A stretch of 20,246 nt of DNA from a virus, in the IMG/VR virus record IMGVR_UViG_3300001750_000034, positions 1 through 20,246 of that record; one strand, given 5' to 3'. Below the pieces are notes generated by a model that did not search any database, was not told the origin of the DNA, and saw nothing but the letters and a program-made list of their open reading frames with translations. This document shows positions 2,061 to 19,520 of this stretch, in pieces; the first letter of the stretch is position 1, and every line of letters begins with the position of its first letter. Made by a program: the position numbers and the translations under genes.

Positions 2061-2486
2061 TCACCTTGCGCCTCCGGTCAGATTCCAATTATCCAACGGT
2101 CGTTGCGCTCTCGCCGCGGGTGCGGTCGCTGCCGGCTGTGGTGCCTGAACTTGCGGTTGCCCCGCGATCTGACCCCACTGCGGCGGCAACTGTCGCGGGG
2201 CTACTGGCCCAACTGGATTGATACTCGTGCCCCGCAAAGCAGCGATCACATCCGGACGAAACCCGAGGGCCTCTACGTCGAGCGGATCGGACCCGGGGAC
2301 CATCTGCGAATGTCCCTGAGAGCGCAGCACGCGCAGAATATCTTCCCGCCCGGCGTCGTCCAACGGCTTTGGCGGGGGGCTGGCGGTGGGGTAGGCGAGT
2401 GGGGCGACGTCCTCGTTCTGATCGAAGAGCCCGCTGAGATTCCCCGGGTCGAGGGCTGCCTTGGTGAATTTGTTGAATATCGACAC
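2061..2486 (-). CDS. Small Pro/Ala-rich phage protein of unknown function (141 aa)
   Basis: The start is GTG at 2484-2486, chosen because AGGAG lies six bases upstream and the frame opens only ten bases after the stop of the PP-loop gene. The protein starts MSIFNKFTKAALDPGN and has a short helical segment around residues 43-60 (DDAGREDILRVLRSQG). It ends in a Gln/Pro/Ala-rich tail (about residues 90-130). No catalytic motif, signal peptide or membrane segment is visible. It sits between the PP-loop enzyme and two ejection-like proteins, so a minor virion or assembly role is plausible but unproven. I do not recognise a named family. Confidence 0.6.
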   Translation of the reverse strand: MSIFNKFTKAALDPGNLSGLFDQNEDVAPLAYPTASPPPKPLDDAGREDILRVLRSQGHSQMVPGSDPLDVEALGFRPDVIAALRGTSINPVGPVAPRQLPPQWGQIAGQPQVQAPQPAATAPAARAQRPLDNWNLTGGAR

Positions 2487-2495
2487 GACGCTCTC

Positions 2496-3365
2496 CTAAC
2501 TTGCTTTCCTGTCTCGCGGCACTTCCAGCGCCATATCGAGGATCGAGACTGTCCGCTCGGTCTCGTCCGTCAAAATACGCTTCAACATTTCGGCCCGGCG
2601 CCTAATTTCCGGCATGAACTCCGGGTAGGTCTTGGCCAAGTACCGCATCCGGTCCGCCGCATAGTCGGTGCGCAGATGACCGGTGCAGAACCAGCAATCG
2701 ATGCCGTCGTTCGCACCATTCAGGTACTGGCGGGGGATCTCCGCCCCCTCACCCTTGAGATATTCCAGCACATCGTCATCGGACCATTCCCAAATTGGAA
2801 AGGCGTACTCAATACCGTCGCCGTCCACAGTCCCGGGCCCGATGCCAACTCTCTCGTCGCATCGCTTGGTCCCGCGCAAGAGAAGGCGGATATCGCTGCG
2901 CATCACCGCATGATGCAGCGGCTTCAAAACCATCTCGAGACAGCAATTCAGCGACGTCTGGATCAAGGTCTCCCGCGGCTCTTCGAGGAAACGGGCCATC
3001 TCGGCTCCGTACCACTCCGGCACCACGTCGAGCGGCAACCCGCGCAGTTCGTGAAATTGGTCTATCGGCATCGGCGGAGATATCAATTTGAGATCGACGC
3101 CGAGCTTTTCGCAGGTGCGCTCGACCAGATCCACGGTATCGGGTAGCCAAGCGCCCGGGTTGGCGAAATGCACCTCTATCTTGTCGAGCCAAGGCCGGGC
3201 CAGATAGAGAACGGCAAGCGAATCCTTGCCGCCGGAGAATTGCAGTATGGCGCGGTCATGACAGGTCCCGGTGTGCGGGGATCTCCAGAGACATGTCTGC
3301 CCCGGTTCCGGCGGCTCAGCGGCCTCGGTATCGAACGGCGGGGTCTTGTGCTTGGTCTCGGTCAT
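2496..3365 (-). CDS. PAPS/APS reductase-like PP-loop enzyme with a 4Fe-4S cysteine signature
   Basis: This 289-residue protein carries the PP-loop S-G-G-K-D-S at residues 44-49, which in this superfamily (N-type ATP pyrophosphatases) binds the phosphates of ATP or of an adenylylated substrate. A CC pair at 141-142 is followed by P-L eight residues on, and then by C-W-F-C at 224-227. This is the CC-X81-CxxC spacing known for the iron-sulfur cluster of assimilatory APS reductases. An RGTKRCDE segment (164-171) fits the substrate-binding part of the family. The usual C-terminal ECGLH motif with the catalytic cysteine is absent, so sulfonucleotide reduction as in CysH is unlikely. A thiolation or other adenylation-dependent reaction, as in DndC-like relatives, is possible. 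It lies within the tail gene cluster, one base after the stop of the preceding gene. Substrate unknown. Confidence 0.88.
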   Translation of the reverse strand: MTETKHKTPPFDTEAAEPPEPGQTCLWRSPHTGTCHDRAILQFSGGKDSLAVLYLARPWLDKIEVHFANPGAWLPDTVDLVERTCEKLGVDLKLISPPMPIDQFHELRGLPLDVVPEWYGAEMARFLEEPRETLIQTSLNCCLEMVLKPLHHAVMRSDIRLLLRGTKRCDERVGIGPGTVDGDGIEYAFPIWEWSDDDVLEYLKGEGAEIPRQYLNGANDGIDCWFCTGHLRTDYAADRMRYLAKTYPEFMPEIRRRAEMLKRILTDETERTVSILDMALEVPRDRKAS

Positions 3366-3366
3366 G

Positions 3367-4299
3367 TCAGAACGCGGTTATGGCTGCGCCGCCGAGGCCC
3401 GCGATAGCACCCATGGCGGCCTGCTGGCCGCCGGCGCTTCGGTTCGCATTGGCATTCCCGGCGTTCTGCTGGAGCCCGTAGGCACTAATGATATCGGGCG
3501 GCGCCACGGCGTAATTCGCGGTCGGCCCGAAATTCGGCAACGGCATGGCCGGTGTACCCTGCATGTAGGCGCTGATCTCGTTGATCGGCTGGGAGCGCTC
3601 GAGGAGCCGGTCCGAGATACCCTGCTGCCGATCCGCCGAGGCAATGCCGAAGAGCCTGGACTGCTCGGCCCGGCCGGACCGCACGGCCTCTTGAGCGGCC
3701 TTGAGGCTGGTCTCGTCCTCCCTTTCGCCAAACTCCTCCAGCGACCGGTTCCAGGCCTCGCCGCCGACCGGCAGACCGCGCACCGTCAGATCGTTTGTCA
3801 TGTCATGCCGGGCTCGATCGAGTTGCGGCCGGACCATGCCCATGATGCGGCCAAACGTCGCGTCCTCAACGGGCTGGGCGGCTCCCTCCAAGTCCTCGGT
3901 GCCGGGTAACTCCCGGAGGCCCTCAAGGTTGAAGGACGGCTGCTCGCCAATCTCCAGCGCCCGGGACATGGCCGGACCGCCCAGGGTTAGACCGAGACGC
4001 CGCTGCAGGTCCACCAACGCCTGCTGGTCTTCGGGCAGTTCTGTGATGCGCGTGCGGCTCGGGTCGCCGATATCGCCGACGTAGCGTGAGGTGCCGAACG
4101 GCGTGATCTCATTGATCTGCGAGACTTTGGCTGATTCCAGCACCGCTTCCTTGTTGGCCGCGCCTTGAGCGGCTGTCAGGGCTACCGGGTCCGGCGTGGG
4201 CGCCGCCGAACCGCCGCCTTTCTTAAAGCGGCGCTCGTCTCTGCCCTGCCCAGTTCCGGCATAGCGGCGGTGCCGTGCGTCTGAACGATATATCATCAT
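3367..4299 (-). CDS. Conserved podovirus-type virion protein, tail/ejection module (310 aa)
   Basis: The frame is open far upstream, but the start is set at the ATG at 4297-4299, because it overlaps the TGA of the acetyltransferase gene (ATGA). A second ATG follows at once. The N-terminus is basic (RSDARHRRYAG), followed by a Gly/Ser/Pro linker and the segment 'INEITPFGTSRYVG', a motif I associate with virion proteins next to tail and ejection genes in podovirus-like genomes. The middle is helical and rich in Glu, Arg and Gln (about residues 70-235). The C-terminus is Gly/Ala/Asn-rich ('NANANRSAGGQQ', 'GAIAGLGGAAI'), possibly membrane- or DNA-interacting. No enzyme motif is seen. An internal virion or tail role is inferred from context. 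Confidence 0.72.
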   Translation of the reverse strand: MMIYRSDARHRRYAGTGQGRDERRFKKGGGSAAPTPDPVALTAAQGAANKEAVLESAKVSQINEITPFGTSRYVGDIGDPSRTRITELPEDQQALVDLQRRLGLTLGGPAMSRALEIGEQPSFNLEGLRELPGTEDLEGAAQPVEDATFGRIMGMVRPQLDRARHDMTNDLTVRGLPVGGEAWNRSLEEFGEREDETSLKAAQEAVRSGRAEQSRLFGIASADRQQGISDRLLERSQPINEISAYMQGTPAMPLPNFGPTANYAVAPPDIISAYGLQQNAGNANANRSAGGQQAAMGAIAGLGGAAITAF

Positions 4300-4757
4300 G
4301 CTGCCGCCCTTTCGTTTCGGCCACCCGGTCTGGTCAGCCAGCGCTGAGCCTCGGCGGCCAGCATGCCGTAGATCATCGCGTCGTCGTCGAGGAACGCCTG
4401 GCGAGCCTTGCCCTCGAGCACGAAGCCCAACCGCTCGACGAAACGCCGCGCTCTTTTGTTTCGGGACGGGATAATTAATGTCGCCCGAGCGCATCCGCAT
4501 TGCACGAACGGATACGCCAGCAAGGCATGGACCGCGCCGCGCGTCGCCCATTTTGGTGTCTCGGTCGCAAAGGCCATTTCTATCGACCGGTAACGCTCCG
4601 AGTAGTTGTAGTACCCAGCAACGGCAACAAGTGCCCCGCTGCCATCCGCTATGCCGATCGCCCGGAAGTTCGGCACGGGCTCGAGGTGAGGAAGCCTGTC
4701 GAGCAACCATTGACCGAGCGTCATCTGGGTATAGGCGTCTCCGATCACGAGCTTCAT
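4296..4757 (-). CDS. GNAT-family N-acetyltransferase, phage-encoded (153 aa)
   Basis: The start ATG at 4755-4757 overlaps the stop of the nozzle gene (ATGA), which fixes this start although the frame is open upstream. The fold is recognisable from the order of elements: a beta strand with 'LVAVAGYYNY' (43-52), the central strand with 'SIEMAF' (58-63), the acetyl-CoA loop and helix region 'ATRGAVHALLAY' (71-82), then 'ATLIIPSRNKRARRFVERLGF' (92-112), which is the classic GNAT 'N-x-x-A-x-x-x-x-x-x-L-G-F' element, and the closing strand 'DDAMIYGML' (125-133). It transfers an acetyl group from acetyl-CoA to an unknown amine. Being locked between two structural genes suggests it modifies a virion or host protein, or acts on host metabolism late in infection. 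The acceptor cannot be deduced. Confidence 0.85.
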   Translation of the reverse strand: MKLVIGDAYTQMTLGQWLLDRLPHLEPVPNFRAIGIADGSGALVAVAGYYNYSERYRSIEMAFATETPKWATRGAVHALLAYPFVQCGCARATLIIPSRNKRARRFVERLGFVLEGKARQAFLDDDAMIYGMLAAEAQRWLTRPGGRNERAAA

Positions 4758-6313
4758 CGCGCACCGCCTTGCTTGATCAAGTAATCGATCGAATACCAGG
4801 TCAGCGAGGCAGCGGTAGAGAAATTCCCCCGGAACCCTATGTTGCGGCCGATCGCCGTAGCGCCGATCCACTTCGGACGCGATTGCGCGCGACTGGCCCA
4901 ATCCGCCACATCCCAATCGTCTTCGTCCCAGGCGCTGCCCACCGACTGGCCGGCCAAAGAAAGCGAGCCCGGGCTAATGTTGCGGGCCGAAAAATCGGCG
5001 TTGAGCGCAATGCCGCCGGTCAAGGTGCCCTCTATGGCCATGACCGTGCGCACCGCCGTTACATGCTTCTTGGAGCCGCGACTGCCCAGGTAGGTGAATG
5101 GCCCGGACACATCGAGATTAATGTCAGAGCCGTTGTCGTTAACACCTGTGTGCTGGTAGACGATGCCGCCGGCGGAACCGAAGTAAATTCCCCCGTTGTG
5201 GTACTCCCAACACCGTGCCGGCAGATCAATAAACCGGGTCCATGCTCCGCGCTGCAGGTTCAAGCAGTGCTGGCGGAACAGCGTGGTTGATTCCGGATAG
5301 TTGAAGTACATGCGGCCATTCGGGAAAACCCGCCCAGCCTGCCAGCCCCATGTTGTTCTGTGCTGCACCGCTAGGTCACGGACAGACTGGGCAATCTTGC
5401 CCCACATGGTGTTTTGGATAATCGCATCGATGGTCCAGCCCTGCATGATCAGCGAGACCGGCAGATAACCCGCCTCGGTAAGAATGGCTAGATCGCCGCC
5501 GACCTTCGTTACGCAGCGCCGGCCAATCGGTGGGGCGCCTTCGTAGGAGCCGACCTTGACCCAGGCCGAGGCCGTGCCCGGGTCCGTGCCCTGATAAACG
5601 ATGATCTCACCGGTGGACATGACAAAGACCTGCATGTCCTCTAATCCAGCACCGCCATCGCGCGACCAGGCGCCACCGGCCACGAGGTAACCGCCCTTAT
5701 TGGCAATTTGGCTGAGATCGAACGCGGCAAGCGCGCCGGTTACCGCCCCGGCACCGGCATAGTAGGCGTTGGCGCTGCCGTCTAGGGCGAACCACAGCCG
5801 GCTCACATGGCTCCAAACCGCCGTCAGTTTGGTGATGTCGGCCGGGCCGGTCCAGGAAGTGTCTTGGAACGTCGTACCATCGTAGTCCCACGGCGCGTCG
5901 TTGCCGTTACACCCGAACATCCGTCCGGTGAAATTATGGGTCTGCCAACGGTTGGATGCGTAGGACTTGCTGGGTGTTAGATCGGTTGCCGCACCGGAGG
6001 AACTAGCGTCGTAGATTTTCCCCCCACCACCGGCGAGCAGCTTTTGAGACGATGCGCTCTCCAATGCGGCCAAGGTTTCGACATCACCAGCGCCGACACC
6101 GGTGGCATGAGACGCATATCCCGGCCGGACCACCAGGCCATGGGTATCGGCGATCCAATTGACCAAGTCCTCGGCATCCGTCTCGGGTAGGGCGTCGCGG
6201 ATATCGCGCGTGTTGATGCCGCCGACCGGTGCCGGATGGGACACAACTCTGGTGCGGACACCTTGCCTCTGCCGGGCCACGGCCGCGCGATATCTGGGGG
6301 CAACAAGTCCCAC
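4754..6313 (-). CDS. Beta-rich tail protein, nozzle/stopper type (519 aa)
   Basis: The chosen start is GTG at 6311-6313, giving MGLVAPRYRAAVARQRQG. A GGGGGG run lies a few bases upstream and the preceding gene stops just four bases before. The frame is open further upstream, but those starts would overlap the adaptor gene. The N-terminal region has 'LPAPVGGIN'-like sequence (HPAPVGGINTRD) and 'LPETDAEDLVNWIADTHGLVVRPGY', typical of phage proteins that open with this head and continue as a beta-propeller. The rest is rich in short Trp/Gly/Tyr/Asp strands, consistent with repeated blades. Proteins of this kind sit directly after the adaptor in P22-, T7- and SU10-like phages (gp10, gp12 and nozzle analogues) and form the DNA-retaining tail tube end. 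The analogy is inferred from position and composition. Confidence 0.78.
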   Translation of the reverse strand: MGLVAPRYRAAVARQRQGVRTRVVSHPAPVGGINTRDIRDALPETDAEDLVNWIADTHGLVVRPGYASHATGVGAGDVETLAALESASSQKLLAGGGGKIYDASSSGAATDLTPSKSYASNRWQTHNFTGRMFGCNGNDAPWDYDGTTFQDTSWTGPADITKLTAVWSHVSRLWFALDGSANAYYAGAGAVTGALAAFDLSQIANKGGYLVAGGAWSRDGGAGLEDMQVFVMSTGEIIVYQGTDPGTASAWVKVGSYEGAPPIGRRCVTKVGGDLAILTEAGYLPVSLIMQGWTIDAIIQNTMWGKIAQSVRDLAVQHRTTWGWQAGRVFPNGRMYFNYPESTTLFRQHCLNLQRGAWTRFIDLPARCWEYHNGGIYFGSAGGIVYQHTGVNDNGSDINLDVSGPFTYLGSRGSKKHVTAVRTVMAIEGTLTGGIALNADFSARNISPGSLSLAGQSVGSAWDEDDWDVADWASRAQSRPKWIGATAIGRNIGFRGNFSTAASLTWYSIDYLIKQGGAR

Positions 6314-6317
6314 GACA

Positions 6318-7034
6318 TTACCCCCCGAAACCACTGTCCGGGACGTTATCGACATCGAGCAGATACGGCGTGCGCCGTCCGGAGAGCGACACCGGGCCAT
6401 GGCCGCCATCGCGGGCTTTGGTCAGGGCGACCTCGTCGTCGTACTCCGTTTTCTCGTCCGCATAGGGCAGTCCCTTGGCGCGCAGATAGCGCCAGTGCAC
6501 GCCCATGGTGAGGAGGTCTTCATCCAGCACCGATGTGTCGGTATCGGCCGCCCAGGTAAGGGCGTCGGCCGCACCGTCACCGTCGCTGTCGACCAGGTTC
6601 TTCGACACGTACTCGAACGCCACTGTATCGGCGGTGTCGGGATTCGGGTGGGCCAACAAATCGGAGCCGCGGACCCGGATCCATTTACGCGGCGTCTGCT
6701 GCACGATACCGGACCGGAGAACCTGCCACTGGTTCGACGTAGAGGGGCCGCGCAGCCGCCACTCGTTGGTGCGATCCCACCAGGTGAAGTTCTTGAAGCA
6801 CCAGAAATCCGACGGGATGGCCCCGGTCTGCACTGACTGTCCGGTTGTCATCGTGAACGTCTGCTCGGCAGTCAGAACCTTCCACGGGTAGCATCTGGCA
6901 AGGTTTTTTAACTCCCGCTTGGCCAACGCAAGAAGTTGGCACGCCGCAGGATCAGTGTTGCCCACGATCGTGCCGGGCGCTTGGTATTCGCCGATTTCTT
7001 CGATGGCGTCGGTGCAAATCGAGAGCAGCGTCAC
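6318..7034 (-). CDS. Head-tail adaptor protein, gp4/tail-tubular-A-like (238 aa)
   Basis: The start is GTG at 7032-7034 with GAGGTG upstream, twelve bases after the stop of the fibre-like gene. The protein starts 'MTLLSICTDAIEEIG' and continues with 'VGNTDPAACQLLALAKRELKNLA', a helical N-terminal domain. Then come 'PSDFWCFKNFTWWDRTNEWRLRGPSTSNQWQ' and 'FEYVSKNLVDSDGDG', and a C-terminal helical part 'LDEDLLTMGVHWRYLRAKGLPYADE'. This is the layout of the podovirus adaptor family (T7 gp11 tail tubular A, P22 gp4 and SU10-type adaptors), a ring that sits under the portal and receives the nozzle. The next gene is the candidate nozzle, as expected. Family assignment is from recalled sequence pattern. 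Confidence 0.82.
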   Translation of the reverse strand: MTLLSICTDAIEEIGEYQAPGTIVGNTDPAACQLLALAKRELKNLARCYPWKVLTAEQTFTMTTGQSVQTGAIPSDFWCFKNFTWWDRTNEWRLRGPSTSNQWQVLRSGIVQQTPRKWIRVRGSDLLAHPNPDTADTVAFEYVSKNLVDSDGDGAADALTWAADTDTSVLDEDLLTMGVHWRYLRAKGLPYADEKTEYDDEVALTKARDGGHGPVSLSGRRTPYLLDVDNVPDSGFGG

Positions 7035-9478: not shown

Positions 9479-10102
9479 TCATCGCTTCTTAGGCCGCTTG
9501 GGTTTGGTTAAAGCGGCCGCGACTTGCCAGCCCTTGTTCAAACGCCATCGAATGATTTTGGCCGGGATACTGGTTTCCTCCGCCCAATCGGCCAGGCTTT
9601 GCGAACGGCCTTTGAAGCGGATCATCGATGTCGAGGTTTTGTTGCGCTGTTGCATTGATGCAGTTGCCCAACGGCAGTTTCCGGGCTCGTAGTTCCCGTT
9701 CACCTCTTTGCGATCTAGCGTAGTTCCCTCGGGGCGCTCGCCCATATCGGCAAGGAATTTCGCGAAATCCGAGATCCATGGCTTGTGAATCTTGATGCCC
9801 CGCTCGCCGTACCGCGAGTAGTCTGGCGCTTTGGGGTTGAGGCATCGTTGCTTCATCGATTCCCAGGATTTGAAGGTCCGTGTCTTGGTCATCCCGTGCG
9901 TCGTAACGGCAGCGAGATGGAGACAACCGCACGATGTGCTCCTGCCGGAGCGCAAGTACCCTGCCCTTACCGTTCGCTTGGTGCCGCATTCGCATCGACA
10001 CAACCAAAACACTTCTCCTCGTTCGTTCCTGTGTGATCGCCCTAGCACAATCCATTTGCCGAAACCTTGCCCTGTCAAATCGAGCCGGTGTATTTTCCGC
10101 AT
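9479..10102 (-). CDS. Free-standing HNH-type homing endonuclease (207 aa)
   Basis: The ATG at 10100-10102 follows AAGGGG. Residues 35-60 form a zinc-ribbon-like cluster (C-R-C-E-C-G and, 18 residues on, S-C-G-C). Residues 77-113 hold 'FKSWESMKQRCLNP' and 'YGERGIKIHKPW', and residues 128-154 hold 'TLDRKEVNGNYEPGNCRWAT' followed by Q-x-x-x-N, the HNH-like catalytic block of this phage endonuclease group. The C-terminal 50 residues (SLADWAEETSIPAKIIRWRL) resemble a helix-turn-helix DNA-binding module. The enzyme would cut unoccupied sites in related phages and spread by repair. The gene sits alone between the major capsid gene and the decoration gene, with 64 AT-richer bases before it, as expected of an inserted mobile gene. 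Confidence 0.88.
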   Translation of the reverse strand: MRKIHRLDLTGQGFGKWIVLGRSHRNERGEVFWLCRCECGTKRTVRAGYLRSGRSTSCGCLHLAAVTTHGMTKTRTFKSWESMKQRCLNPKAPDYSRYGERGIKIHKPWISDFAKFLADMGERPEGTTLDRKEVNGNYEPGNCRWATASMQQRNKTSTSMIRFKGRSQSLADWAEETSIPAKIIRWRLNKGWQVAAALTKPKRPKKR

Positions 10103-18880: not shown

Positions 18881-18887
18881 CCTCCTA
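18881..18887 (-). promoter_or_regulatory. Ribosome binding site TAGGAGG overlapping a stop codon
   Basis: The TAG that ends the J-domain gene is the first three bases of TAGGAGG, a full anti-16S match. It sets the start of the next gene at 18870 and lets terminating ribosomes be caught at once. Confidence 0.65.
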
Positions 18888-19520
18888 GTACGAACCAAAG
18901 ATGTTGGTGGTAGTGCTCAGGCCGTGGAACACCGAGACGTGTTGGGCCAACTCGGTCACGCACTCGTAGGTTTCCAGTTCCGCCAGCACCGCCGCGAAGC
19001 CCTTGGTCTCCCGTTCCATCACGGCGATCTGCGTCTCGACGTCCGTGGCCTTACGCTCCACGATGGCGCGGAAAAGGTTGTCGCCCTCCTTGCGGCTGAT
19101 CCGGCCCGCCAACGCCCGCAACCGGTCGCGGTGTTCCCTGGCCTCCGACAATCCCTTGGCCACCATACCGGCCGCTTCTCCGGCACAGTTCACCATGGCC
19201 TTGACGATATCGACGTCCTTCCGGAACGCCTGGCCGGTGCCAATCACTTCCTCGAAGAGCTTGGCCTGCAGGGACGCCACATAACCGTGGAACCGCAGGT
19301 CGCTATCGTCGTCGACCGCGCCCGTTTCGTCATAGCGCAGGCGCTTCGCCGGATCGGAGAGAACCAGGTAGGCCCGGCGCACCGCGACGAATGCTTCGAT
19401 GTTGCCGCCCACGTCGGGGTGCGTTGCCTTGCTGCGCTCCCGGAACGCCGCCTTGATAGCGGGCGCCGCTGCGTCTTTCGGCACGTCGAGGATGCGGTAT
19501 GGATCGAAGATTTCGCTCAT
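18885..19520 (-). CDS. J-domain (DnaJ-like) co-chaperone, phage-encoded (211 aa)
   Basis: The ATG at 19518-19520 overlaps the stop of the 65-residue gene (ATGA). Residues 6-67 are a complete J domain: 'DPYRILDVPKDA' (helix I), 'AIKAAFRERSKATHPDVGG' with the essential H-P-D at 34-36, then 'FVAVRRAYLVLSDPAKRLRYDETG' (helices III and IV). J domains stimulate the ATPase of host DnaK. There is no Gly/Phe linker or zinc finger, so this is a class C type J protein. The C-terminal 140 residues are helical and charged ('RKDVDIVKAMVNCAGEA', 'HRDRLRALAGRISRKEGDNLFRAIVERKATDVETQIAVMERE') and likely bind a specific client. Placed between terminase and portal genes, it may recruit host DnaK to capsid or terminase assembly. 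The client is inferred. Confidence 0.88.
   Translation of the reverse strand: MSEIFDPYRILDVPKDAAAPAIKAAFRERSKATHPDVGGNIEAFVAVRRAYLVLSDPAKRLRYDETGAVDDDSDLRFHGYVASLQAKLFEEVIGTGQAFRKDVDIVKAMVNCAGEAAGMVAKGLSEAREHRDRLRALAGRISRKEGDNLFRAIVERKATDVETQIAVMERETKGFAAVLAELETYECVTELAQHVSVFHGLSTTTNIFGSY

Follow-up and report, generated by a model that had tools for sequence, protein, structure and literature searches.

The gene cysH is a commonly reported viral auxiliary metabolic gene (AMG), which underpins claims of phage-driven sulfur cycling, and AMG surveys count it in phages (PMC10914622). The closest annotated relatives of the gene considered here, at 33-35% identity, are the 'PAPS reductases' borne as morons by the Lessieviruses, Bcep22-like podoviruses of Burkholderia (JC1 gp65, BcepIL02 gp67 and the copies in DC1, BcepMigl and CSP3), and the authors of JC1 read gp65 as a protein of sulfate reduction (PMC9144972). 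Other described members of the PP-loop superfamily provide further points of comparison. An intact PP-loop in this superfamily usually accompanies ATP-dependent adenylation of an acceptor, as in the tRNA thiolases, and the cluster-dependent tRNA thiolases hold their cluster by three Cys ligands with one iron left free (PMC10067955). DndC has been described as carrying a three-Cys cluster along with a separate Cys dyad (PMC10853773). A literature search turned up no residue-level study of viral CysH that was on point. In what follows we compare a new phage locus with these systems.

The window, that is, the whole stretch of DNA analysed, is a virus record fragment of 20,246 bases in which all recognisable genes lie on the minus strand, in the order terminase end, DnaJ-domain protein, portal, major head protein, HNH endonuclease, tail protein, head-closure-like protein, GNAT, virion protein and PP-loop gene. 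The last of these is a 289 aa open reading frame; on the plus strand of the same segment the frame is broken by a stop codon. The relevant features are the following.

2061..2486, minus strand: downstream gene of 141 aa with no assigned role
2496..3365, minus strand: PP-loop / PAPS_reduct family gene, 289 aa (PF01507 43.4 bits, cut-off 22.5; PHROG 424 E 1.6e-23)
2499..2681, minus strand: helical C-terminus (residues 229-289), standing where reductases have their RxGR and ECG[IL]H tail, from sequence and model
2685..2696, minus strand: codons of C224-W-F-C227, predicted cluster ligands, aligned to the CxxC of 7lhr and invariant in 59/59 sequences
2940..2945, minus strand: codons of C141-C142, predicted cluster ligands, aligned to the CC of the M. 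tuberculosis APS reductase 7lhr and invariant in 59/59
3219..3236, minus strand: codons of SGGKDS, the intact PP-loop, residues 44-49, invariant in 59 sequences save for K/R at 47
3367..4317, minus strand: structural protein of the virion, encoded upstream and with an unfixed start; Lessieviruses also have this gene next to the family member
4296..4757, minus strand: GNAT acetyltransferase-like gene, a frequent neighbour whose specific link to the PP-loop gene is not supported
4754..6409, minus strand: virion protein, start not fixed, profile-related to the JC1 head-closure protein gp61 (PHROG 5107)

The stop of the upstream virion structural gene lies one base ahead of the ATG of the PP-loop gene (TGAcATG), and 9 bases separate the stop of the latter from the start of the downstream gene. 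The location inside the tail gene cluster, as given in the initial annotation, is thus borne out in the form of a tightly packed minus-strand operon with virion genes, and from this position it is plausible that the PP-loop gene is co-expressed with the late genes; scans for promoters and terminators gave a signal no higher than in shuffled sequence. The Lessievirus morons belong to the same family, carry the same motifs and occupy the same location, after the virion gene and GNAT, and apart from about 35 extra N-terminal residues the window protein shows no essential difference from them. The Lessievirus counterpart of the 3367..4317 product is JC1 gp64, a detected virion protein; since virion proteomics of JC1 lists gp64 and not gp65 (PMC9144972), a virion-borne role of the PP-loop protein itself was set aside.

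The neighbourhood recurs in the family. Of 90 loci, 81 have a head-closure-type gene in the vicinity and 48 a GNAT gene, two genome-borne copies are also neighboured by virion or ejection-protein genes, and further relatives lie in plasmid records with virion genes among their neighbours. Among the 17 relatives that were located by the tail gene and offer enough DNA, GNAT is present in 11 and the PP-loop gene in none, so that the notion, prompted by synteny, of a functional 'module' of GNAT, virion protein and PP-loop gene was dropped; the PP-loop gene is accessory in these phages.

The motifs described in the initial annotation are found exactly as claimed, namely SGGKDS at residues 44-49, CC at 141-142, P149-L150 and CWFC at 224-227, giving CC-X81-CxxC; likewise the C-terminal end, ...MALEVPRDRKAS, lacks ECG[IL]H, as do all 89 family copies. 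Searching the virus contigs with just the one protein returned no relatives and an alignment query was needed, with which 2.9 million contigs yielded 310 relatives, the best 80 of which were retained. In 59 non-redundant aligned sequences, which are 23-42% identical to the window protein, S44, G45, G46, D48, S49, C141, C142, C224 and C227 are invariant (59/59) and residue 47 is either K or R. Homologues without the cysteines, which had been named beforehand as evidence against the cluster reading, were looked for in this set, and all four cysteines proved invariant. The pattern CC-X(77-88)-CxxC occurs in 89 of 90 loci, the sole exception being an archaeal virus protein (L005) which falls outside the clade, and ECG[ILM]H in 0 of 90. 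The way the search was made does not account for the conservation of CxxC, because many loci matched the PP-loop search pattern only, nor for that of CC, which formed part of no search pattern. Among close copies in a Lessievirus group the dN/dS values of 0.11-0.41 indicate purifying selection, and PHROG 424 matches all 53 members tested.

The AlphaFold2 model of the window protein, computed from the 59-row set minus six rows from annotated records, is confident (pLDDT 91.6, pTM 0.86), with a helical tail. Compared with solved structures, it resembles APS/PAPS reductases best (Z about 17), followed by CysD, GMP synthetases and the tRNA thiolase NcsA (Z about 14) and by LarE (about 12). In a profile alignment to 7lhr the CC falls over CC and the CxxC over CxxC, both with 81-residue spacing, and in 7lhr the cysteines in these positions bind the cluster. 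The other observation named beforehand as counting against the cluster reading, a model with the cysteines lying far apart, is addressed only indirectly by these comparisons. At the level of sequence, therefore, the CC-X(about 80)-CxxC of the family coincides with the ligands of a [4Fe-4S]-type site, and the four cysteines are predicted to form a cluster site of the APS-reductase type. The invariant SGGxDS loop, with its K/R alternation, is that of a PP-loop ATP pyrophosphatase. We consider it likely that the protein is an ATP-dependent enzyme bearing a cluster.

Whether such an enzyme could reduce sulfonucleotides is best judged against the reductases themselves. All six reference APS reductases, taken from bacterial genomes also holding a family member, have CCxxRK, RxGR, ECGxH and a degenerate PP-loop such as SSFGAE, and the PAPS reductase of E. 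coli has the loop SSSFGIQA and the tail ECGLH. The phage family presents the reverse set, with an intact SGG[KR]DS, no ECGxH and a hydrophobic residue in place of the Lys that follows CC (L/I/V/F/M in nearly all 59 sequences, never Lys), and there is no RxGR in the tail of the window protein. Thus, with the [4Fe-4S] APS reductases (CysH; 2goy, 7lhr) the family shares the fold and the four equally spaced cysteines, but differs from them in these determinants, in the state of the PP-loop and in forming a separate clade. A working APS/PAPS reductase, an AMG boosting host sulfate assimilation, would agree with the matches to PF01507 and PHROG 424, with the nearest solved folds, with cluster cysteines that are those of APS reductases, and with both the reading of gp65 by the JC1 authors (PMC9144972) and the counting of cysH in AMG surveys (PMC10914622). 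Yet ECG[IL]H with its catalytic Cys is missing in all copies, neither RxGR nor the Lys that follows CC is there, and the PP-loop is of the ATP type; moreover the NCBIfam CysH model PRK02090 gives the window protein 28.1 bits against a cut-off of 154, and 6 of the 7 bacterial genomes that carry a family copy already encode an ECGxH-bearing enzyme. We regard it as improbable, and very probably the phage family does not perform APS or PAPS reduction at all. Sulfur insertion into the phage DNA backbone in the manner of DndC or SspD, which could protect the DNA or alter its packaging, appears no more probable. These proteins belong to the same superfamily, share the SGG[KR]DS loop, a cluster motif and the lack of ECGxH, and the SspD and BrxP profiles match many family members weakly; but their cysteine layouts differ, and in a tree of 68 sequences, including the phage family, APR/PAPR, CysD, DndC and SspD, the phage family is one clade (support 100/99), separate from APR/PAPR (99/97), CysD, DndC (100/99) and SspD (100/100). 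The DndC model TIGR03183 does not match the window protein and matches 1 of 53 members, weakly. In the 27 virus records of at least 30 kb no gene for DndD (0/27) or cysteine desulfurase (0/27) was found, although host IscS could substitute for the latter and the window is a fragment; the idea of a Dnd-like island was dropped for lack of these partner genes. Hence, of the original proposal of a repurposed cluster-bearing PP-loop enzyme, the DndC-type identity is not supported, while a probable non-reductase with a four-cysteine motif is supported by conservation, profile alignment, fold and tree.

The constant placement of the gene directly after that of a virion protein could also suggest an enzyme that modifies protein, for example by adenylylation or nucleobase conjugation of the adjacent virion protein, in the manner of Cap9 or QueC. 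QueC-family enzymes have indeed been recruited for protein conjugation (PMC11996544), and Cap9 (9nto, E 3.3e-7) is one of the solved structures that the sequence matches. Adjacency is weak evidence in phages, however, and relatives possess the same virion genes without the PP-loop gene, while the NCBIfam QueC models match only 1 of 53 members. To our knowledge QueC enzymes do not have this four-Cys pattern, and we think protein modification unlikely. The sporadic, accessory distribution would, in principle, also suit an arms-race gene, such as a decoy or binding protein without enzymatic activity, made to sequester a nucleotide signal used in host defence, but strict conservation of both the PP-loop and the four cysteines points to catalysis, and of the alternatives weighed here we give this one the least credence, holding it to be very improbable.

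The explanation that we prefer, and to which we would give somewhat better than an even chance, is that phages carry a PP-loop ATP pyrophosphatase family of their own, built on an APS-reductase scaffold and carrying out an ATP-dependent modification, whatever its substrate. On this explanation the intact PP-loop would bind ATP and activate an acceptor by adenylation, an APS-reductase-like [4Fe-4S] cluster held by the four cysteines would lie close to the ATP site, and a nucleophile, either sulfur or another group, would displace AMP, with no APS or PAPS reduction by the phage enzyme. The enzyme would act on its own, with host enzymes as the source of any sulfur, and would be produced alongside virion proteins without being itself a virion component. 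The acceptor would most likely be nucleic acid, with RNA somewhat above DNA; taken by itself, the assignment of the substrate to nucleic acid is a tentative one, which we place a little below evens.

Such preference as there is for RNA stems from the archaea. The nearest match for the whole combination of motifs is found in archaeal proteins with SGGKDS, CC-X85/86-CxxC and no ECGxH, several of which have PUA (RNA-binding type) and ferredoxin domains and one also TGT_C2, and on account of these PUA domains RNA may be weakly favoured as the substrate of the phage enzyme. This is an argument by analogy, since the archaeal PUA proteins and the phage clade do not group together in the tree, where a deep split of 59/47 only leaves the placement of the clade among its neighbours unfixed. 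The archaeal PRK13795-type proteins (PAPS_reduct, PUA and ferredoxin), whose model is named 'hypothetical protein', differ further from the phage family in being cellular and in their extra domains; against the preferred explanation, the domain search saw neither PUA nor any other nucleic-acid-binding domain in the phage protein. With TtcA, TtuA and NcsA the family has in common the PP-loop fold (NcsA 6scy, Z 13.6, a fold match only) and a cluster, which in the phage protein is a predicted one, but those enzymes bind theirs by three Cys and leave an iron free (PMC10067955), a mechanism into which four invariant cysteines in the APS-reductase arrangement do not fit simply. A simple thiolase of the TtcA/TtuA type is therefore disfavoured, and thiolation is just one option among the reactions that may be envisaged.

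For the reading of viral cysH these findings are of consequence. Because the reductase determinants are absent and the ATP-type PP-loop is intact, the usual name of the family, PAPS reductase or cysH AMG, and with it the reaction that the name implies, is on sequence evidence probably wrong, and the family-wide evidence calls into question the published sulfate-reduction reading of the Lessievirus 'PAPS reductases'. Among 50,697 phage records, proteins related to the true CysH of bacteria occur in no more than a handful, chiefly two Acinetobacter records of 254 kb and one Salmonella record of 691 kb that look like pieces of bacterial chromosome. Across the 2.9 million virus contigs a scan for true APS reductases found 1 contig compared with 310 for the phage family, a contrast which, as the pattern scans are unequally sensitive, provides a lead and not a rate. 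It is conceivable, although we think it rather unlikely, that the whole gene class read as cysH is a phage-specific cluster-bearing ATP pyrophosphatase which modifies RNA, DNA or a virion protein in a manner not described before, while virions are being made.

Several observations made alongside concern individual records. On a Comamonas thiooxydans plasmid (L010:7494-8756) a single product, annotated as a whole as 'methyltransferase type 11', joins about 170 N-terminal residues to the family domain, and the long virus record of L045 (G203:C1:11623-12441 and 41174-41317) encodes a further PAPS_reduct domain protein that differs from the first and has a far higher Pfam score (90.7 bits). Archaeal loci such as L097, L110 and L118 combine PUA, PAPS_reduct and ferredoxin domains without the reductase tail, the matching models being called 'hypothetical protein', and L181, entered in the tree as an APR, clusters with CysD and is devoid of ECGxH. 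In the window itself, a DnaJ-domain protein (18885-19520, minus strand; PF00226 E 8e-14), unusual in a head-packaging cluster, is encoded between terminase and portal, and a likely homing endonuclease, the HNH-endonuclease-like gene at 9479-10102 (minus strand; PHROG 374 E 1.1e-66), separates the gene of the major head protein from the virion gene that comes next. Finally, a 42.7 kb contig from another dataset (L219, IMGVR_UViG_3300027822_000022) ends within its tail gene, which is 98% identical over 122 residues to that at 6318-7034 of the window, and on this sequence match it probably represents a near relative of the window virus.
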